Below are positions 6-10,054 of a DNA stretch of 32,317 nucleotides, piece after piece. A program made the position numbers and the translations under genes. Below the pieces are notes generated by a model. It was not told the origin of the DNA. It ran no database searches and saw only the letters and a list, made by a program, of their open reading frames with translations. The stretch lies in assembly GCA_017465625.1 (NCBI GenBank), contig JAFTVV010000011.1:1-32317 (forward strand), read 5' to 3'. The number at the start of each line of letters is the position of its first letter. Position 1 is the stretch's first letter. The stretch comes from Oscillospiraceae bacterium. Its GTDB lineage: Bacteria > Bacillota > Clostridia > Oscillospirales > Oscillospiraceae.

Positions 6-81
6 GCACCTTTAGCTCAGTTGGTAGAGCAACTGACTCTTAATCAGTGGGTCCCCGGTTCGAGTCCGTGAAGGTGCACCA
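6..81 (+). tRNA. tRNA-Lys (anticodon CTT)
   Basis: A complete 76-nt cloverleaf. The acceptor stem GCACCTT (6-12) pairs perfectly with AAGGTGC (71-77), followed by discriminator A and an encoded CCA. The anticodon stem CTGA/TCAG closes a seven-base loop CTCTTAA, giving anticodon CTT, which reads the lysine codon AAG. The T arm carries GGTTCGAGTCC. It is one base from the next tRNA, so both are probably processed from one transcript that also includes the 5S rRNA. Confidence 0.97.
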
Positions 82-82
82 T

Positions 83-157
83 GGCCCGTTGGTCAAGCGG
101 TTAAGACACCGGCCTCTCACGCCGGTAACGGGAGTTCGATTCTCCCACGGGTCACCA
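83..157 (+). tRNA. tRNA-Glu (anticodon CTC)
   Basis: A complete 75-nt tRNA. Acceptor stem GGCCCGT pairs with ACGGGTC (one G-U pair), followed by A and an encoded CCA. The anticodon stem CCGGC/GCCGG closes the loop CTCTCAC, giving anticodon CTC for the glutamate codon GAG. The T arm is GGGAG-TTCGATT-CTCCC. It lies between tRNA-Lys and the 5S rRNA gene. Confidence 0.97.
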
Positions 158-188
158 AGGTAAATAATGGTTAAAAGCCATTTATATA

Positions 189-304
189 GTTCGTGTTGAT
201 TGCTGTGAGGGTCCACCTGTTCCCATCCCGAACACAGAAGTTAAGCTCACTTGCGCCGACAATACTTGGCGGGCGACTGCCCGGGAAGATAGGTAACGCG
301 AACA
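189..304 (+). rRNA. rrf: 5S ribosomal RNA
   Basis: A sequence of about 116 nt with the hallmarks of bacterial 5S rRNA: terminal helix I formed by GTTCGTGTT (189-197) and AACGCGAAC (295-303), and the conserved internal strings CCCATCCCGAACACAGAAG and TTAAGCTC. It follows two tRNAs and is directly followed by a terminator. No 23S rRNA is visible within the 188 bases upstream, so either tRNAs sit between 23S and 5S or this is a 5S copy linked only to tRNAs. The exact ends are estimated from helix I. Confidence 0.93.
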
Positions 305-3788: not shown

Positions 3789-6623
3789 ATGGGCAAGGAT
3801 CGAATAAAAATACTGATTGCCCTGGTTGCGTGCCTGCTTGTGTTTACACTCGCGTTCTTTTTTGTGTCCGAGGGCACAAAAAAGGAAAACGGCGTCACTG
3901 CAGGCAGTGTGGTAATCAGCGAAATTTTGTCTGGTAATACCCTATATCCCGATGATAATGGCGCATATTTAGACTTTATTGAAATTCACAATCCGAATAC
4001 ATATCAGGTGAACCTCTCTGGCTACAAACTCTCTGACAAGGAAACAGCAGTAGGTTATACCTTTTCCGGTGATGCGGTGATTCCTGCAGGTGGCTACACG
4101 GTGGTATTCTGTAACAAGGAAGACCGCAGCGGTGCATACGCCGGATTTGGTATTTCCGCTAAAGGAGACGAAGCAGTATATCTTTATAACAGCGCAAATG
4201 TGCTGATTGACCGCGTCCAGGTGTCTGCAACGGAAAAGAATGTACCCCTGATTCGGGGAGCGGACGGCAACTGGACAGAGGGAAGCTTCGCAACGCCCGG
4301 CTATCCCAATACGCAGGAGGGATTTCAGCAATGGCTTGCTTCTAAGGGAGAAGGGGATTGCACGGTGCGCATTAACGAGGTGCAGACCTCCAACCGCAGT
4401 AGTGTGCTGGGCGGCAATGGGCAGTTTTGCGACTGGATTGAGCTTTATAACTATGGCAGTGAGCCCCAAACATTGACGGGTTTTTATCTGTCTAATGAGG
4501 AGGGCGATCCCTTGAAATGGGCATTGCCGGAGCTGGTGCTGCAGCCGGGCGCGTATCAGGTGATTGCCTGCGCCGGTGACAGTGCAGAAGCCGATGAAGC
4601 TCCCTTCGGACTGTCGAAAAGCGGTTGCACGGTAACGCTTTCCGGTATTTACGGCAATGAACTGAGCAAGGTCGTGTGCCCTGCAATGGCGGCGGACGAA
4701 GCCTATCAATGTGTTGAAAACGGGGAATTTTTGCTCTCCAAGGAGGTAAGTCCCGGTTATCCGAATACGCAGGAGGGCGCGAAGCAGTACCGGGATACCT
4801 GTACTGTGCGTGGCTGTTTGGCAATCAATGAGGTGATGCCCTCCAACAGCCGCTATATGATTCAAAATGACGGCAATTATTATGATTGGGTGGAACTGAA
4901 AAATGTATCTGACCGACCGATCAATTTGGCTGACTACGCCCTGTCGGATCAGGAGGACAATCTGCATCTTTTCCCCCTTCCGGAGAGGACACTCCAACCC
5001 GGAGAGATGATTGTGGTCATTTGCTCCGGCAATACCGCGCTGACAGGCAATTATATCCACGCCCCCTTTGGGCTGAATTATCAGCAGTGCTGGGTTTATG
5101 TGACCCATTTGGAAGAGGGACTTTCCGACGGCTACAGGGTGGAAAATGTACCCTCCGGCGGCAGTGTGGGCAGAAAAGACGGCGAAACGGCGCTGTATTA
5201 TTTTACAACACCCACCCCCAAGGAGGAGAACAAGGGCGGTCAGGCGCAGATTGCAGACACCCCTTTTGTTGAAACCCCGGCAGGCGTGTACAACAACGTG
5301 CAGGGCGTAGAGGTAGTCCTTTCCGGGGAAGGACAGATTCGCTACACCTTAGATGGCAGTGTACCCACTGTAAATTCGCCCCTGTATACCACGCCCCTTT
5401 GCTTGACTTCTACAACCACCGTACGGGCAATCAGCTTTGCGGAGGGGAAGCTTCCCAGCAGGACGTTGACCGCCGGATACATCATCAACGAACAGCACGA
5501 ATTTCCGGTGCTGAGCATCTCTGCAGATCCAAATTCCATTTTTGGCGGCGGTGGCATTTATACCAATTATAATTCTGAGGCAGAAGTGCCCTGTAACGTT
5601 TCCTTTTATGAAGACGGGAACGGCTTTTCCATTGACTGCGGCATTAAAATGCACGGTCACACTGGCCTGATGAATCCCAAAAAGAGCTTTAAAATCAACT
5701 TCCGCAGTCGCTACGGTGAAAAATACCTGACTTATCCCGTATACGGTGAAGATGCCCCTCAGGTTTACGACAGCCTGTGTATTCGGGCAGGACAGGATTA
5801 TCTGTTTGCGTTTTTTCGGGAGGAATTGTTTGTATCTCTGTGTCAGGATATGACCGACGAGGTGCTGACCCAGCGCAGTCGGCACTGCGTGGTGTATATC
5901 AACGGTCAATACTTTGGTATTTACAATCTGAAAGAGGCATTTACCGAACTTTACTATGCCCAAAATCGGGATGTTTCCGAGGAAAGCGTGGAAATTCTGC
6001 AAGCACCGGTGTATCCAAATACGGAGGTTTATGGGTTAATGGCGTATATGCGCACCCACGATCTATCGGTGCAGGAGCACTATGAATATGTCAGCTCTAA
6101 GCTGGATATCGAGAGTATTATTGACTGGATGATTATTGAGGCTTATTGCACCAACGGAGACGTTCAGCAAAACTTGCGATACTTCCGCAGCTCGGAAAAC
6201 GGTTATCGCTATGAGCCTGCGCTGTACGATTTGGACTGGGCGTTTTATTACCACAACCCCTTTGGAACGCTGTTAGACCCCAATACCGAATGGCAGCACG
6301 TGCGCCTGCTTCGACCGCTTTTTGAAAATACAGAATTCAGAGCGCAATTTTTCTCCCGTCTGAGCTACCATTTGGAGCATACCCTCTCTACAGAAAACGT
6401 GCTCAAGCGTATTGATGAGCTGGAAACGACCCTGTTAAATGAAATGTACCGGGAGAAGAGCCGCTGGGGCGGCACAGTGGGCATTTGGAAGGCCCGGGTA
6501 CAGGAACTGCGCAGCTTCATCACCAATCACAATCATCCTGCGCAAATGGTTTATCGCCTGCAGCGGTACGTATGGCTGAGCAGTGAGGAAACCCAGAAAT
6601 ATTTCGGGAGGTGGGTTCAATGA
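3789..6623 (+). CDS. Secreted or membrane-anchored lamin-tail / CotH kinase-like protein
   Basis: A 944-residue exported protein. An N-terminal hydrophobic segment (about residues 7-26) follows a Lys/Arg-containing start and may be a signal peptide or membrane anchor. Three lamin-tail-like domains follow, starting near residues 41 (VVISEILSGN), 191 (VRINEVQTSNR) and 344 (LAINEVMPSN); each has the D-x-(I/V)-E-(I/L) strand and a QPG(A/E) turn. A chitobiase C-terminal-like domain is near 510-565 (IRYTLDGSVPTVNSPLY). A CotH kinase-like domain fills about 570-900, with MHGHTGLMNPKKSFKINF, GIYNLKE and the acidic motif YDLDWAFYYHN near 813. CotH of Bacillus is a spore-coat protein kinase; lamin-tail domains are thought to bind partners outside the cell. 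Ribosome site AGAGGAAG. The stop overlaps the next start (ATGA). Activity on a protein substrate is inference. Confidence 0.88.
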   Translation: MGKDRIKILIALVACLLVFTLAFFFVSEGTKKENGVTAGSVVISEILSGNTLYPDDNGAYLDFIEIHNPNTYQVNLSGYKLSDKETAVGYTFSGDAVIPAGGYTVVFCNKEDRSGAYAGFGISAKGDEAVYLYNSANVLIDRVQVSATEKNVPLIRGADGNWTEGSFATPGYPNTQEGFQQWLASKGEGDCTVRINEVQTSNRSSVLGGNGQFCDWIELYNYGSEPQTLTGFYLSNEEGDPLKWALPELVLQPGAYQVIACAGDSAEADEAPFGLSKSGCTVTLSGIYGNELSKVVCPAMAADEAYQCVENGEFLLSKEVSPGYPNTQEGAKQYRDTCTVRGCLAINEVMPSNSRYMIQNDGNYYDWVELKNVSDRPINLADYALSDQEDNLHLFPLPERTLQPGEMIVVICSGNTALTGNYIHAPFGLNYQQCWVYVTHLEEGLSDGYRVENVPSGGSVGRKDGETALYYFTTPTPKEENKGGQAQIADTPFVETPAGVYNNVQGVEVVLSGEGQIRYTLDGSVPTVNSPLYTTPLCLTSTTTVRAISFAEGKLPSRTLTAGYIINEQHEFPVLSISADPNSIFGGGGIYTNYNSEAEVPCNVSFYEDGNGFSIDCGIKMHGHTGLMNPKKSFKINFRSRYGEKYLTYPVYGEDAPQVYDSLCIRAGQDYLFAFFREELFVSLCQDMTDEVLTQRSRHCVVYINGQYFGIYNLKEAFTELYYAQNRDVSEESVEILQAPVYPNTEVYGLMAYMRTHDLSVQEHYEYVSSKLDIESIIDWMIIEAYCTNGDVQQNLRYFRSSENGYRYEPALYDLDWAFYYHNPFGTLLDPNTEWQHVRLLRPLFENTEFRAQFFSRLSYHLEHTLSTENVLKRIDELETTLLNEMYREKSRWGGTVGIWKARVQELRSFITNHNHPAQMVYRLQRYVWLSSEETQKYFGRWVQ

Positions 6624-7300
6624 AGGACGGCTTCCGACACGAGCATAAATATCTCATTTCCACCCAAAGCGCCGTACTGCTGAAGCACCGTCTTCGGGGT
6701 GTGATGGATCGGGACCCCTATGCAGGCCCGACAGGGCAGTACACCATCCGCAGCTTGTATTTTGATGATGAAAAATTCACTGCATACGATGAAAAACTGG
6801 ATGGTCTTCGGGATCGCGTGAAGTACCGCATACGGTTTTACAACTACAATTTAGACCAGATCCGCTTGGAGAAAAAAGAAAAACACGAGGAGTTGACTCG
6901 CAAAACCGGCGAGCGCATTTCCCGTGAAGAGGCGCTGTACCTGCAAAAGGGCATTCGGGAAGGCGGTTTTACCGGTAGCGGTCCGCTGATGCGGGAGCTG
7001 GAAGCAGGCATTCGCTGTGGGTTGCATCCTGCCATTTTGGTGGACTATGACCGCACGCCGTTTGTGTGCAGTGCCGGTCAGACACGAATCACCGTAGACG
7101 AGCATATTCGTACCCGTCCATACAGTCCGGATTTGATTGCCTCAACCGGGGCGATGGTGCCGGTGCTGGAAGAGGGGATGGCGGTTTTGGAGGTAAAATA
7201 CAACGACTTTCTTCCGGGCTATCTTTCAGAGGTGCTGGAGGAAATTCCCAAAGTGCCTTTGGCTATTTCTAAGTACGTTCTTTGCTTAAATACCATCTAA
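6620..7300 (+). CDS. VTC domain protein, polyphosphate polymerase-like
   Basis: A 226-residue protein of the VTC family (triphosphate tunnel fold, like the catalytic domain of yeast Vtc4, which makes polyphosphate from ATP). Visible marks: the N-terminal HEHKYLI (the E-x-K strand), YTIRSLYFDDE, basic strands RDRVKYRIRFYN and IRLEKKEKHEE, YDRTPFV, and the late AVLEVKYNDFLPGYL with the acidic metal residue. Start ATG 6620 is preferred over the in-frame GTG at 6611 because GGGAGGTG lies at the right distance before it and the start overlaps the previous stop as ATGA. It is soluble and probably works at the membrane with the DUF4956 protein encoded next. Polyphosphate synthesis is inferred from the family. 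Confidence 0.88.
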   Translation: MKDGFRHEHKYLISTQSAVLLKHRLRGVMDRDPYAGPTGQYTIRSLYFDDEKFTAYDEKLDGLRDRVKYRIRFYNYNLDQIRLEKKEKHEELTRKTGERISREEALYLQKGIREGGFTGSGPLMRELEAGIRCGLHPAILVDYDRTPFVCSAGQTRITVDEHIRTRPYSPDLIASTGAMVPVLEEGMAVLEVKYNDFLPGYLSEVLEEIPKVPLAISKYVLCLNTI

Positions 7301-7314
7301 AGAGAGGAAAAAAG

Positions 7315-7980
7315 ATGAGTTTTCAAGATATTATTAAAAATTCCTTTTTGGAAGAGTTTTCTGCCATTTCCGTCAGTACTGCGCTGATTGCGATTGGCCT
7401 TTCCTTTGCACTGAGCCTGTTCATATCCTGGATTTACCGCATCACCTATGGCGGCGTGTGCTACAGCAAAGGTTTTACCCGTTGCCTGATTATGCTGACG
7501 ATGGTCACAACAGTGGTGATCTTGGTGATCTCCTCCAATGTGGTGCTGTCGCTGGGTATGGTGGGCGCATTGTCCATTGTTCGTTTCCGCACAGCCATCA
7601 AAGAGCCTACTGATACGGCATTTCTGTTTTGGGGCATTGCCACTGGTATCATCTGCGGTGCAGGCTACATCGGCGTATCCATACTGGTGACACTGTTACT
7701 GGGCTTGCTGTTTGTTGCTGTACACGCCTTTGCCAAAACGCAAAAACGGGGCAGTTATATGATCGTTTTGCGCTATAGCAAAGGCTGTGAGGCGGTTAAG
7801 ACGGTGGAGCAGCTTCCGCGCTTTGTGCTGAAGAATAAAAACCTGCAGGGCGACCATATAGAACTGGTTGCTGAAGTGGAGCTGACGACACAGGCACTGC
7901 AGACAGTGGAAGCACTGAGCACAGCCGAAGGCGTGCAGGAAATTACCATTATGCGTTCTGTAAGCGGCAGCGTACTGTAA
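7315..7980 (+). CDS. DUF4956 integral membrane protein
   Basis: A 221-residue membrane protein. Start ATG 7315 follows AGAGAGGAAAA. Hydrophobic helices lie at about residues 20-37, 55-75, 100-120 and 122-140, and the family signature GMVGALSIVRFRTAIKEP lies between helices, followed by a soluble tail of about 75 residues. DUF4956 genes commonly neighbour VTC-domain and CotH-domain genes in Firmicutes, as here; I infer that this protein anchors the VTC enzyme or carries its product across the membrane, by analogy with the membrane parts of the yeast VTC complex. It ends at a strong bidirectional terminator. No biochemical role is established to my knowledge. Confidence 0.88.
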   Translation: MSFQDIIKNSFLEEFSAISVSTALIAIGLSFALSLFISWIYRITYGGVCYSKGFTRCLIMLTMVTTVVILVISSNVVLSLGMVGALSIVRFRTAIKEPTDTAFLFWGIATGIICGAGYIGVSILVTLLLGLLFVAVHAFAKTQKRGSYMIVLRYSKGCEAVKTVEQLPRFVLKNKNLQGDHIELVAEVELTTQALQTVEALSTAEGVQEITIMRSVSGSVL

Positions 7981-8025: not shown

Positions 8026-8196
8026 TCACATTGCAGAGCTGATTTTATTTGTAACAGATTGTGCAGCATCCTCTACTTTTTGAGCGGCTTTTTCCGCCAG
8101 TTTTCTTGTGGGGTTTCCGCTGGGCATCATCATAATCGCTACTGCCCCGGCGGCAGCGCCAACGCCCATAGCGGCTAAAATACCTTTGATGTTCAT
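8026..8196 (-). CDS. Small 56-residue protein, membrane segment plus amphipathic helix
   Basis: A short gene of 56 codons. The product begins MNIKGILAAMGVGAAAGAVA, a glycine/alanine-rich hydrophobic segment up to about residue 23, and continues with a charged helix (RKLAEKAAQKVEDAAQSV). Start ATG 8196 has AAAGGAAGTG at a good distance upstream, and the gene ends next to the bidirectional terminator. The form, a short hydrophobic stretch then a Lys/Glu/Ala helix, resembles YtxH-like small stress proteins of Firmicutes, but it is too short for a firm family call. The function is unknown. Confidence 0.75.
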   Translation of the reverse strand: MNIKGILAAMGVGAAAGAVAIMMMPSGNPTRKLAEKAAQKVEDAAQSVTNKISSAM

Positions 8197-8264: not shown

Positions 8265-8292
8265 TTGCAATCACAAAAAACTGTGCTATAAT
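8265..8292 (+). promoter_or_regulatory. Sigma-A promoter of the PyrF-like gene
   Basis: TTGCAA, a 16-base spacer and TATAAT, with TGC directly before the -10 box (extended -10). It lies 50 bases before the start codon. Confidence 0.78.
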
Positions 8293-8342
8293 AAAGAAAA
8301 AAGGTATTTTCTGGGACTGAAAATATAAAGGAGGAGTTTTAA

Positions 8343-9221
8343 ATGTCTATGGATCGACTGCAGGAAAAAATCAGAAAGACGAAAAATGTTGCGGTGCTTG
8401 ATTTTGACATAAAACCGGATCAGATTCCCCCTCATATTTTGCGCCAGGAGGTACATTTTGCAAAAGCCTATGCCCGATTTTGCGTGGAGCTGCTGGAAGG
8501 ACTGAAAGGACTTGTACCTGCAGTGCGTTTCAGCTTTTCTGCTTTTGCGTTGCTGGGCGGTGATGGCCTGAGTGCGCTGTCCTTTGTTTCGGAGCAGGCG
8601 CGAAAAATGGGATACTATATTCTGTTGGATGCGCCGGAGGCACTGTCTGCTCAGCGTGCCGAATGCAATGCGGATTTGCTGTTTCAGAATGGGATCACCT
8701 GGAACTTTGATGGTCTGATCATCACCTCGTTTATTGGCAGTGATGCCATTATGCCCTACACGATCCCACTGGAAGATGCAGATAAATCCCTGTTTGTGGC
8801 AGTGCGTACCGGCAATCGCACTGCTCCTGAGCTGCAGGATTTGCTCAGTGGCGGTCGTCACGTTTATGAAGCGCAGGCGGATATCGTCAATCGCTTTAAA
8901 AATCAAAAGGCAACCCGTAGCGGTTATGACCGTGTTGCGCTGATCGGCCCGGCATCGTCTGCGGCTATTTTGAAAAAGCTGCGCGAAAAGTATAAAAATC
9001 TGTTTATTTTAATTGATGGCTACGATTATCCCAACGGTAACGCCAAAAACTGTGCGGAAGCTGCCGACAAGTTAGGACACGGCATTGCTGTTTGCGTGGG
9101 CACATCCGTCACGGCCGCGTGGCAGATATCAGAAAAAGACGGCACGGACTATGTAGAGGATGCAAAAGAGGCTGTCCTTCGGATGAAGAACAACCTGAAG
9201 CGTTATTTCACCATTTTGTAA
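8343..9221 (+). CDS. Orotidine-5'-phosphate decarboxylase-like protein lacking catalytic residues
   Basis: A 292-residue protein with the outline of group 2 orotidine-5'-phosphate decarboxylases (PyrF, last step of UMP synthesis). Matching strands: LVPAVRFSFSAFALLGGDGL (57-75), YYILLDAPEAL (91-101), DGLIITSFIGSDAIMPY (123-139), LFVAVRTGNRTAPELQDLL (150-168), VALIGPASSAAILKKLRE (198-215), FILIDGYD (221-228). The catalytic D-x-K-R-G-D segment reads DAPEAL (96-101): Lys is Pro98 and the second Asp is Leu101. The lysine of VKPQ is Arg62, the PGYGAQGG phosphate loop reads DGYDYPNGNA (225-234), and the SSR phosphate-binding Arg is replaced by GTS (253-255). Decarboxylation is therefore very unlikely. 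Ribosome site AAAGGAGGAG. It is a monocistronic gene with its own promoter, not in a pyr operon. A binding or regulatory role is possible but unproven. Confidence 0.72.
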   Translation: MSMDRLQEKIRKTKNVAVLDFDIKPDQIPPHILRQEVHFAKAYARFCVELLEGLKGLVPAVRFSFSAFALLGGDGLSALSFVSEQARKMGYYILLDAPEALSAQRAECNADLLFQNGITWNFDGLIITSFIGSDAIMPYTIPLEDADKSLFVAVRTGNRTAPELQDLLSGGRHVYEAQADIVNRFKNQKATRSGYDRVALIGPASSAAILKKLREKYKNLFILIDGYDYPNGNAKNCAEAADKLGHGIAVCVGTSVTAAWQISEKDGTDYVEDAKEAVLRMKNNLKRYFTIL

Positions 9222-9667: not shown

Positions 9668-10054
9668 ATGAAGAAGTTAATGGTAAAGAAAACCGCAGAA
9701 TGTATGGCTTGTCTGGAATGCGTGCGTGCATGCTCCAATGCCTTTTTTAAGACCTTTGATCCGGACCTGAGCTGTATCAAGGTTGTTGCTAAGGGTACGG
9801 GTGCAAAGCCGATGACCTGTATTCAGTGCGGCAAATGTGCAAAGGTATGCGAAGCCGGTGCTATTACCCAGAATCCCAAGACCGGTGTTTATATGATCAA
9901 CAAGAAGCTGTGCACCTCCTGTGGCAAATGCGTAGAGGAATGCCCGATGAAGGTGATGGTTTGCCCTGCGGAAGGCCCTACCACCAAGTGTATTGCCTGC
10001 GGCATTTGCGTCAAGGCGTGCCCCATGGAAATTCTGGAAATCGTAGAAAAGTAA
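9668..10054 (+). CDS. Polyferredoxin with four [4Fe-4S] binding motifs
   Basis: A 128-residue iron-sulfur protein. Four C-x2-C-x2-C-x3-C motifs are visible, with Cys at 12/15/18/22, 51/54/57/61, 82/85/88/92 and 108/111/114/118, plus extra Cys36 and Cys99. This is the arrangement of electron-transfer subunits such as HydN, HycB and CooF, here in very compact form. No partner oxidoreductase gene lies beside it and it has its own promoter and terminator, so it may be a free electron carrier. Its redox partner cannot be told from the sequence. Ribosome site AAGGAG is 11 bases before the ATG, slightly long. Confidence 0.9.
   Translation: MKKLMVKKTAECMACLECVRACSNAFFKTFDPDLSCIKVVAKGTGAKPMTCIQCGKCAKVCEAGAITQNPKTGVYMINKKLCTSCGKCVEECPMKVMVCPAEGPTTKCIACGICVKACPMEILEIVEK

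Follow-up and report, generated by a model that had tools for sequence, protein, structure and literature searches.

The window analyzed here is a 32,317-nucleotide contig of an Oscillospiraceae bacterium (assembly GCA_017465625.1, contig JAFTVV010000011.1, positions 1 to 32,317 of the forward strand). We studied a gene at positions 8343-9221 that is related to group 2 orotidine-5′-phosphate (OMP) decarboxylase (PyrF2) and is referred to as dead PyrF2. A sequence-only reading of the window had described it as a PyrF-fold protein without its catalytic signatures. The gene and its altered motifs are as follows:

8343..9221, plus strand: dead PyrF2, a putative PyrF2-derived non-decarboxylase, from its open reading frame (ORF), family match, predicted fold and alignment
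8526..8528, plus strand: codon of Arg62, replacing the first catalytic lysine (K44 of Escherichia coli, the VKPQ lysine), from alignment
8628..8645, plus strand: DAPEAL, codons 96-101, replacing DxKRxD, from sequence and alignment
9015..9044, plus strand: DGYDYPNGNA, codons 225-234, replacing the phosphate-gripper loop PGYGAQGG, from alignment
9099..9107, plus strand: GTS (G253-T254-S255), codons 253-255, replacing SSR, with loss of the phosphate-binding arginine, from alignment

The ORF starts with ATG and encodes 292 amino acids and a stop codon in an intact frame. Frame error and misassembly were ruled out: both the window copy and the same-genus orthologues matched, except that of genome G010, have an open frame. 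The protein matches the NCBIfam model of group 2 PyrF, TIGR02127 (E = 1.5e-23, 83.3 bits), below its curated cut-off of 110.6, and PDB entry 3r89 (E = 3.2e-15), and its predicted fold is an OMP decarboxylase barrel. A Pfam scan to E = 10 returned no family, PF00215 included. The fold outline proposed by the sequence-only reading is thus supported, and the four replaced motifs are present in the sequence as it described them. Within DAPEAL (D96-A-P98-E-A-L101), Pro98 stands in the column of the catalytic lysine and Leu101 in that of the second aspartate, so the D-x-K-x-x-D motif of PyrF2 with its lysine is absent; the strand-2 lysine, the gripper-loop proline and the phosphate-binding arginine are Arg62, Asp225 and Thr254, respectively. 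The claim that all signatures are lost holds for the lysines, the loop and the SSR arginine but not for Asp22 and Asp96 (E. coli D22 and D71), which this copy retains. The signature of PyrF2 (D, K, D, K, D, H, P, R) was taken from an excerpt of PMC3584854, and its positions other than H were compared here. The phosphate arginine and the gripper glutamine are important in OMP decarboxylase, according to an excerpt of PMC12874384. Since the lysine of D-x-K-x-x-D has been lost, and then the residues that hold the 5′-phosphate, the protein is unable to decarboxylate OMP by the known mechanism.

Three sets of aligned sequences were compared: 75 from the genus of the window (duplicates removed), 35 true PyrF2 sequences picked by DxKRxD, and 34 lysine-less sequences of other genera. 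The latter two classes are set by the motif itself, and the catalytic lysine of the true sequences is there by definition. Same-genus sets of 90, 75 and 76 sequences were used for different counts; the 90 include some assemblies held in two collections, and the 76 comprise the window and hits of a locus search, assigned to the genus by similarity. Loci from this pattern search are the best 80 of 108. The replacements seen in the window are largely shared by its same-genus orthologues. Among the 76 same-genus sequences, none has lysine in the catalytic column and 70 have proline, and the second aspartate is leucine in 52 of 75. The Arg62 column holds arginine in 72 of 75 same-genus sequences and lysine in all 35 true PyrF2 sequences. 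D96 is kept in 65 of the 75 (D or E in 72), and D22 in only 6.

It is also evident that new residues have become fixed. Residues found in at least 90% of the 75 same-genus sequences, unlike those of true PyrF2, include R62 (72), P98 (69), R155 (72), D225 (73), N233 (70) and G253 (69). The same residues are found in 0, 0, 12, 1, 5 and 11, respectively, of the 34 lysine-less sequences of other genera; the presence of R155, G253, N233 and D225 in some of them suggests that part of the pocket change predates the genus. In the predicted structure, the genus-fixed positions sit in or near the C-terminal halves of the barrel strands; the active site of a TIM barrel lies at the C-terminal ends of its strands. 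Ancestral residues retained in the genus include G132, D134, N158, Q165, D166, R214, G245, G247 and W260. The motif QDLxxGxR (residues 165-172; Q165, D166, L167, G170 and R172) is invariant in 26 sequences from a whole-protein search and in the 75 deduplicated sequences, although one of the two peptide patterns of the locus search was this QDL motif, so that its conservation in sequences found that way is partly built in and the count is weakened. Residues 166-170 are the least confident part of the model (below 50). This loop may correspond to the one named "umbrella" in the yeast enzyme in an excerpt of PMC12874384.

Other genera of the family show less altered motifs, such as DSMRGDVG, DTMRGDID and DAMRGDAP. 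Among the 34 lysine-less sequences, the catalytic lysine is replaced by Met in 24, Asn in 4, Ser in 3, Ala in 2 and Gln in 1, and other signature residues are mostly retained (D22 in 29, K44 in 27, D71 in 29, D76 in 26, the loop proline in 26 and the phosphate arginine in 29). The idea that all signatures were lost together therefore failed: relatives show a stepwise loss with the catalytic lysine first, the early steps apparently in genomes without de novo pyrimidine synthesis. In a tree of 84 sequences, the genus of the window (24 sequences) forms one clade (SH-aLRT 99) inside a lysine-less clade (100), which joins two true PyrF2 sequences, L086 and L088 (branch 100); L162 groups with the DxMRGD sequences, outside the genus. 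Fourteen sequences from other genera and families, with the motif lost or garbled, form a separate clade (97), which points to at least one further loss, with caution about long-branch attraction. The tree has three lysine state changes and at least two independent losses, a soft count because the tree was built by a quick method with SH-aLRT only and long branches may be drawn together. The separate motif-less clade (loci L169, L177, L180-L183, L189, L190 and L192-L198) aligns poorly in the motif region, with K at the lysine column in two sequences whose remaining motif is gone and a gap in nine, and was left out of the residue comparison.

We further examined the pyrimidine pathway genes. 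The genome of the window (1.70 Mb, 47 contigs, 80% complete) contains a group-1 PyrF with an intact catalytic motif, DLKLHD, on contig C12 in the order pyrK-pyrD-pyrF-pyrE, followed by pyrB; pyrK and pyrD were named by their similarity to the family-scanned operon of L216. A separate pyrF with an intact motif, which the sequence-only reading had suggested looking for, is thus present. This genome gave no second group-2 PyrF; on C36, a weak match to PF00215 was rejected, its ORF being read by eye as ribulose-phosphate epimerase. Profile searches covered PF00215 in 80 genomes and pyrE (TIGR00336) and pyrB (TIGR00670) in 62. Among the 26 lysine-less genomes of other genera in which the motif was read, outside the separate clade, group-1 PyrF, pyrE and pyrB were all missing over cut-off in 13 drafts (G287, G347, G382, G698, G664, G475, G642, G502, G505, G616, G435, G555 and G498). 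The other 13 (G766, G558, G604, G564, G509, G451, G526, G711, G605, G731, G629, G537 and G472) have group-1 PyrF and pyrE, and 12 of them pyrB (not G711, 73% complete). Two genomes of genus g37, G756 and G628, both outside the PF00215 search set, have no pyrE or pyrB over cut-off. The missing genes of these drafts suggest auxotrophy, i.e., loss of de novo pyrimidine synthesis. Twelve genomes with intact PyrF2 (G438, G621, G453, G430, G569, G494, G060, G091, G208, G277, G358 and G295) all have pyrE, 11 have pyrB (not G438), and none has group-1 PyrF. G521 (L231; 96% complete) has an intact DAKRGD motif, no pyrE or pyrB over cut-off, and a histidine phosphatase/GNAT gene directly downstream of pyrF2, and is apparently an early intermediate that has taken the first step. 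In the separate clade, group-1 PyrF, pyrE and pyrB are all present in G376, G692, G747 and G574 and all missing from G370. In the genus of the window, group-1 PyrF was found in 18 of 20 genomes (not in G008, 68% complete, or G035) and pyrE in 12 of 14, missing from the same two; a dead PyrF2 match was not found in G021 and G035.

The ratio of nonsynonymous to synonymous changes (dN/dS, simple NG86 counts) between the window gene and its 92% identical orthologue in L089 is 0.037 (dN 0.045, dS 1.21). Thirteen close same-genus pairs range from 0.07 to 0.21 (median 0.123), to be compared with 0.051 for TruA (3 pairs), 0.079 for WhiA (3), 0.063 for DnaE (6) and 0.243 for MurB (3). Six close pairs of the DxMRGD genus g37 give 0.03-0.07, and one pair of another genus 0.22. 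At the level of sequence, these close pairs support purifying selection acting on the altered protein, as opposed to decay. Together with the new residues fixed at the barrel mouth, the ratio of the window gene agrees with the earlier claim that the gene is selected for a job other than decarboxylation. Two marks of a pseudoenzyme, loss of essential catalytic residues in a conserved family and purifying selection, are found here.

The expression signals upstream of the gene are:

8265..8292, plus strand: sigma-70-type promoter-like site, TTGCAA-16-TATAAT, with TG before the -10 element, from a promoter scan
8327..8334, plus strand: Shine-Dalgarno sequence AAAGGAGG, 8 nucleotides before the ATG, read from the sequence

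The gene had been credited with a strong promoter and ribosome site of its own. Both elements were found, but the promoter scan alone is weak, with 6 promoter-like sites in the region versus 3.0 ± 1.7 in shuffled sequences. By the same rule, a promoter-like site lies within 150 nucleotides upstream in 19 of 28 same-genus loci including the window (a raw count with no shuffled baseline), and the window and its three nearest relatives share an identical TATAAT. The Shine-Dalgarno sequence and a promoter-like site are retained in most loci examined. An RNA gene or riboswitch was ruled out, as Rfam at gathering score gave no hit near the locus, and so was a phage origin, as PHROGs gave no match.

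Two neighbors recur among relatives. Of the 56 loci of intact PyrF2 with enough sequence, 25 have PyrK and 24 have PyrD in the 1.5 kb downstream, and runs of pyrF2-pyrK-pyrD-phosphatase/GNAT are found in L214, L216, L240, L241 and L245-L248. None of the 33 lysine-less loci of other genera has PyrK or PyrD, and 27 of the 33 have the phosphatase/GNAT gene within 300 nucleotides downstream, at distances of -3 to 16, which makes translational coupling likely. This gene is downstream in 11 of 15 loci of the separate clade; because some loci stop before a downstream pyrD or phosphatase gene could appear, the counts of these genes are lower bounds. Its product has His_Phos_1 and GNAT domains; among curated models it comes closest to alpha-ribazole phosphatase, PspA and GpmB, in each case below cut-off, and the nearest PDB chain is the phosphatase 1h2e. 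Examples of the fusion lie at L199:8864-9865, downstream of a dead pyrF2, and at L216:9627-10769, at the end of a pyrF2-pyrK-pyrD operon. When 28 whole genomes of the genus were searched with this protein as query, three (G001, G010 and G728) had a strong match (E < 1e-50). The other neighbor is:

8026..8196, minus strand: divergent small gene, YtxH-like, 56 amino acids, a recurring neighbor of dead PyrF2, from a sub-cut-off Pfam match and a profile of relatives

The small ORF of the window matches the YtxH-like family PF12732 with 22.5 bits (E = 1.6e-4), below the gathering score of 37.5, and a second copy matched no family. The profile built from relatives places a divergent YtxH-like ORF no more than 700 nucleotides upstream of the dead PyrF2 gene in most same-genus loci (64 of 74), in 23 of 32 lysine-less loci from other genera and, in the separate clade, in 7 of 15. 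It is within 700 nucleotides in none of 57 true PyrF2 loci; two of the 57 have it 0.7-1.5 kb off, and in the wider L214 it is about 1 kb away, and its placement near pyrF2 may therefore predate the loss of the lysine.

Taken together, the sequence comparisons make it moderately probable that the protein descends from a group-2 OMP decarboxylase, has ceased to decarboxylate OMP and has been kept for a ligand-binding, probably regulatory, job. The pathway was probably lost first, the lysine then changed to methionine, and the pocket was rebuilt in the genus of the window. The ancestral setting would have been of the operon type still seen in near relatives, pyrF2-pyrK-pyrD-histidine phosphatase/GNAT. 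An Oscillospiraceae lineage would then have lost de novo pyrimidine synthesis, as the gene distribution suggests, with pyrF2 and the phosphatase/GNAT gene staying as a tight pair. The change of lysine to methionine (DxMRGD), with most other catalytic and phosphate-binding residues kept, is seen in living relatives and by the tree would come next; a protein able to bind a nucleotide but not to convert it is expected to look like this. On the branch of the genus the pocket was remodeled, with Arg62, Pro98, Arg155, Asp225, Asn233 and Gly253 fixed and the phosphate arginine and gripper loop lost, so the ligand probably changed. Some lineages, this genus included, may later have gained a pyr operon with group-1 PyrF that did not displace the dead copy. 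The conserved umbrella loop and the new polar set at the mouth argue that the protein still binds something; a small molecule might be bound under QDLxxGxR and its state relayed to a partner, the candidates being the co-directional phosphatase/GNAT protein in relatives and the divergent YtxH-like peptide. We put forward only tentatively, as a possibility we would not bet on, that the dead enzyme became a ligand-gated regulator, starting as a lysine-to-methionine nucleotide binder acting with the phosphatase/GNAT protein and later rebuilt for a ligand without a 5′-phosphate, with the YtxH-like membrane peptide as partner; equally tentative, as part of it, is that such a change arose at least twice within this taxonomic order.

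Several results weigh against this interpretation. The regulatory job is deduced from the loss of catalysis together with conservation. Part of the genus can do without the gene, with a match in 27 of 36 genomes (10 of the 13 that are at least 90% complete), and the G010 copy (L032/L174) is split between two frames, its adjoining phosphatase/GNAT gene being open. The phosphatase/GNAT gene lies downstream in 5 of 73 same-genus loci, and the genome of the window, 80% complete, has no match to it at 1e-8; as it is gone from most of the genus and unmatched here, it is an unlikely partner in this genome and was rejected as such. The wider surroundings are shared within the genus (among 63 loci, murB in 40, dnaE in 39, whiA in 36, ecfT in 35, truA in 32, a clpC-like gene in 32 and a ferredoxin-like gene in 20; ecfT, clpC-like and ferredoxin-like were named by family scan and the others by reading), and part of the neighbor linkage may therefore be plain inheritance of gene order. 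The missing pyr genes were scored in draft assemblies, some of them no more than 70-87% complete. The dS of the window pair, about 1.2, is near saturation, 574 same-genus pairs with dS of 0.2-1.5 have a median dN/dS of 0.34 and a maximum of 0.87, and distant lysine-less pairs reach 0.5-0.8. We attribute the higher ratios between distant pairs to saturation and composition; our claim of selection rests on the close pairs.

The remodeled mouth (Arg62, Asp96, Arg155, Asn158, Asp225 and Asn233) could instead be a new active site with a different reaction and substrate, a serious contender even if we think it rather unlikely. Polar residues that are fixed at, or close to, the C-terminal strand ends, the purifying selection and the acidic residue at position 96 in nearly all same-genus sequences would fit a new enzyme; against it, no metal- or cofactor-binding signature was recognized by eye, no neighbor suggests an obvious substrate, and the related sequences pass through a DxMRGD stage that looks like binding without turnover. 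The barrel has precedent for taking up new reactions, and two such precedents keep the D-x-K-x-x-D that is gone here. A structural or tethering scaffold, bound for instance by the YtxH-like protein and with a pocket that no longer matters, would account for the recurrence of that ORF beside altered copies and its absence directly beside true PyrF2, but we regard it as improbable: several residues of the pocket mouth are fixed in the genus, the small ORF is missing from 10 of the 74 loci, and a shared promoter region suffices to hold two genes adjacent.

That a leftover gene is slowly being lost fits the nine same-genus genomes without a match, the split copy, the fast divergence (25 relatives are 40-67% identical to the window protein) and the median ratio of the 574 pairs. 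The low dN/dS of the window copy and the close pairs nearly refutes such decay, which is also at odds with the retained expression signals, the newly fixed residues and frames that are open across many genera; we consider it very improbable. An OMP decarboxylase working by an unusual mechanism borders on the incredible. It could point to the overall fold and to the two aspartates kept in this copy, yet the lysine has become proline, the phosphate arginine and gripper loop are gone, the genome has a group-1 PyrF, and the 13 lysine-less genomes without group-1 PyrF also lack pyrE over cut-off and so give no sign of an OMP supply.

The window protein shares fold, length, core and descent with PyrF2 (TIGR02127; 3r89 of Anaerococcus prevotii), but its catalytic lysine, second lysine, second aspartate, loop proline and phosphate arginine are replaced, it scores below the curated cut-off, and no pyrK-pyrD follows it. 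Group-1 OMP decarboxylase, represented by the genome's own PyrF (PF00215), belongs to the same ribulose-phosphate-binding barrel superfamily but keeps DLKLHD and its place in the pyrK-pyrD-pyrF-pyrE operon, whereas the window protein does not match PF00215. The open-licence PubMed Central papers searched yielded no description of such an OMP decarboxylase homologue. Pseudoenzymes are a known kind of protein, of which as a rule only the end point is observed. In this case, extant relatives appear to offer a whole series, from the intact operon enzyme through an intact lysine without pyrE and pyrB and the change of lysine to methionine to the rebuilt pocket, and half of the lysine-less genomes followed retain the altered protein alongside pyrE and another PyrF. 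The OMP decarboxylase barrel is among the most proficient catalysts, and this is a natural case for asking what it can do without its chemistry. DxMRGD copies score over the Pfam OMPdecase cut-off in genomes where pyrE and pyrB were not found, and pathway predictions may therefore count a pyrF that is unable to work in the known way.

Other features of the window were also noted. Upstream of the gene, at 3789-7980 on the plus strand, lie CotH kinase/lamin-tail, VTC-domain and DUF4956 proteins, where about half of the same-genus loci have ecfT-truA-clpC-like; this difference is a rearrangement or insertion. Downstream, at 9668-10054 on the plus strand, a 128-amino-acid ferredoxin-like protein with several 4Fe-4S motifs is encoded, which also lies downstream of dead PyrF2 in some other genera and was treated as a neighbor, not counted as part of the system. 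The window begins with genes for tRNA-Lys (ctt), tRNA-Glu (ctc) and 5S rRNA (6-304, plus strand).
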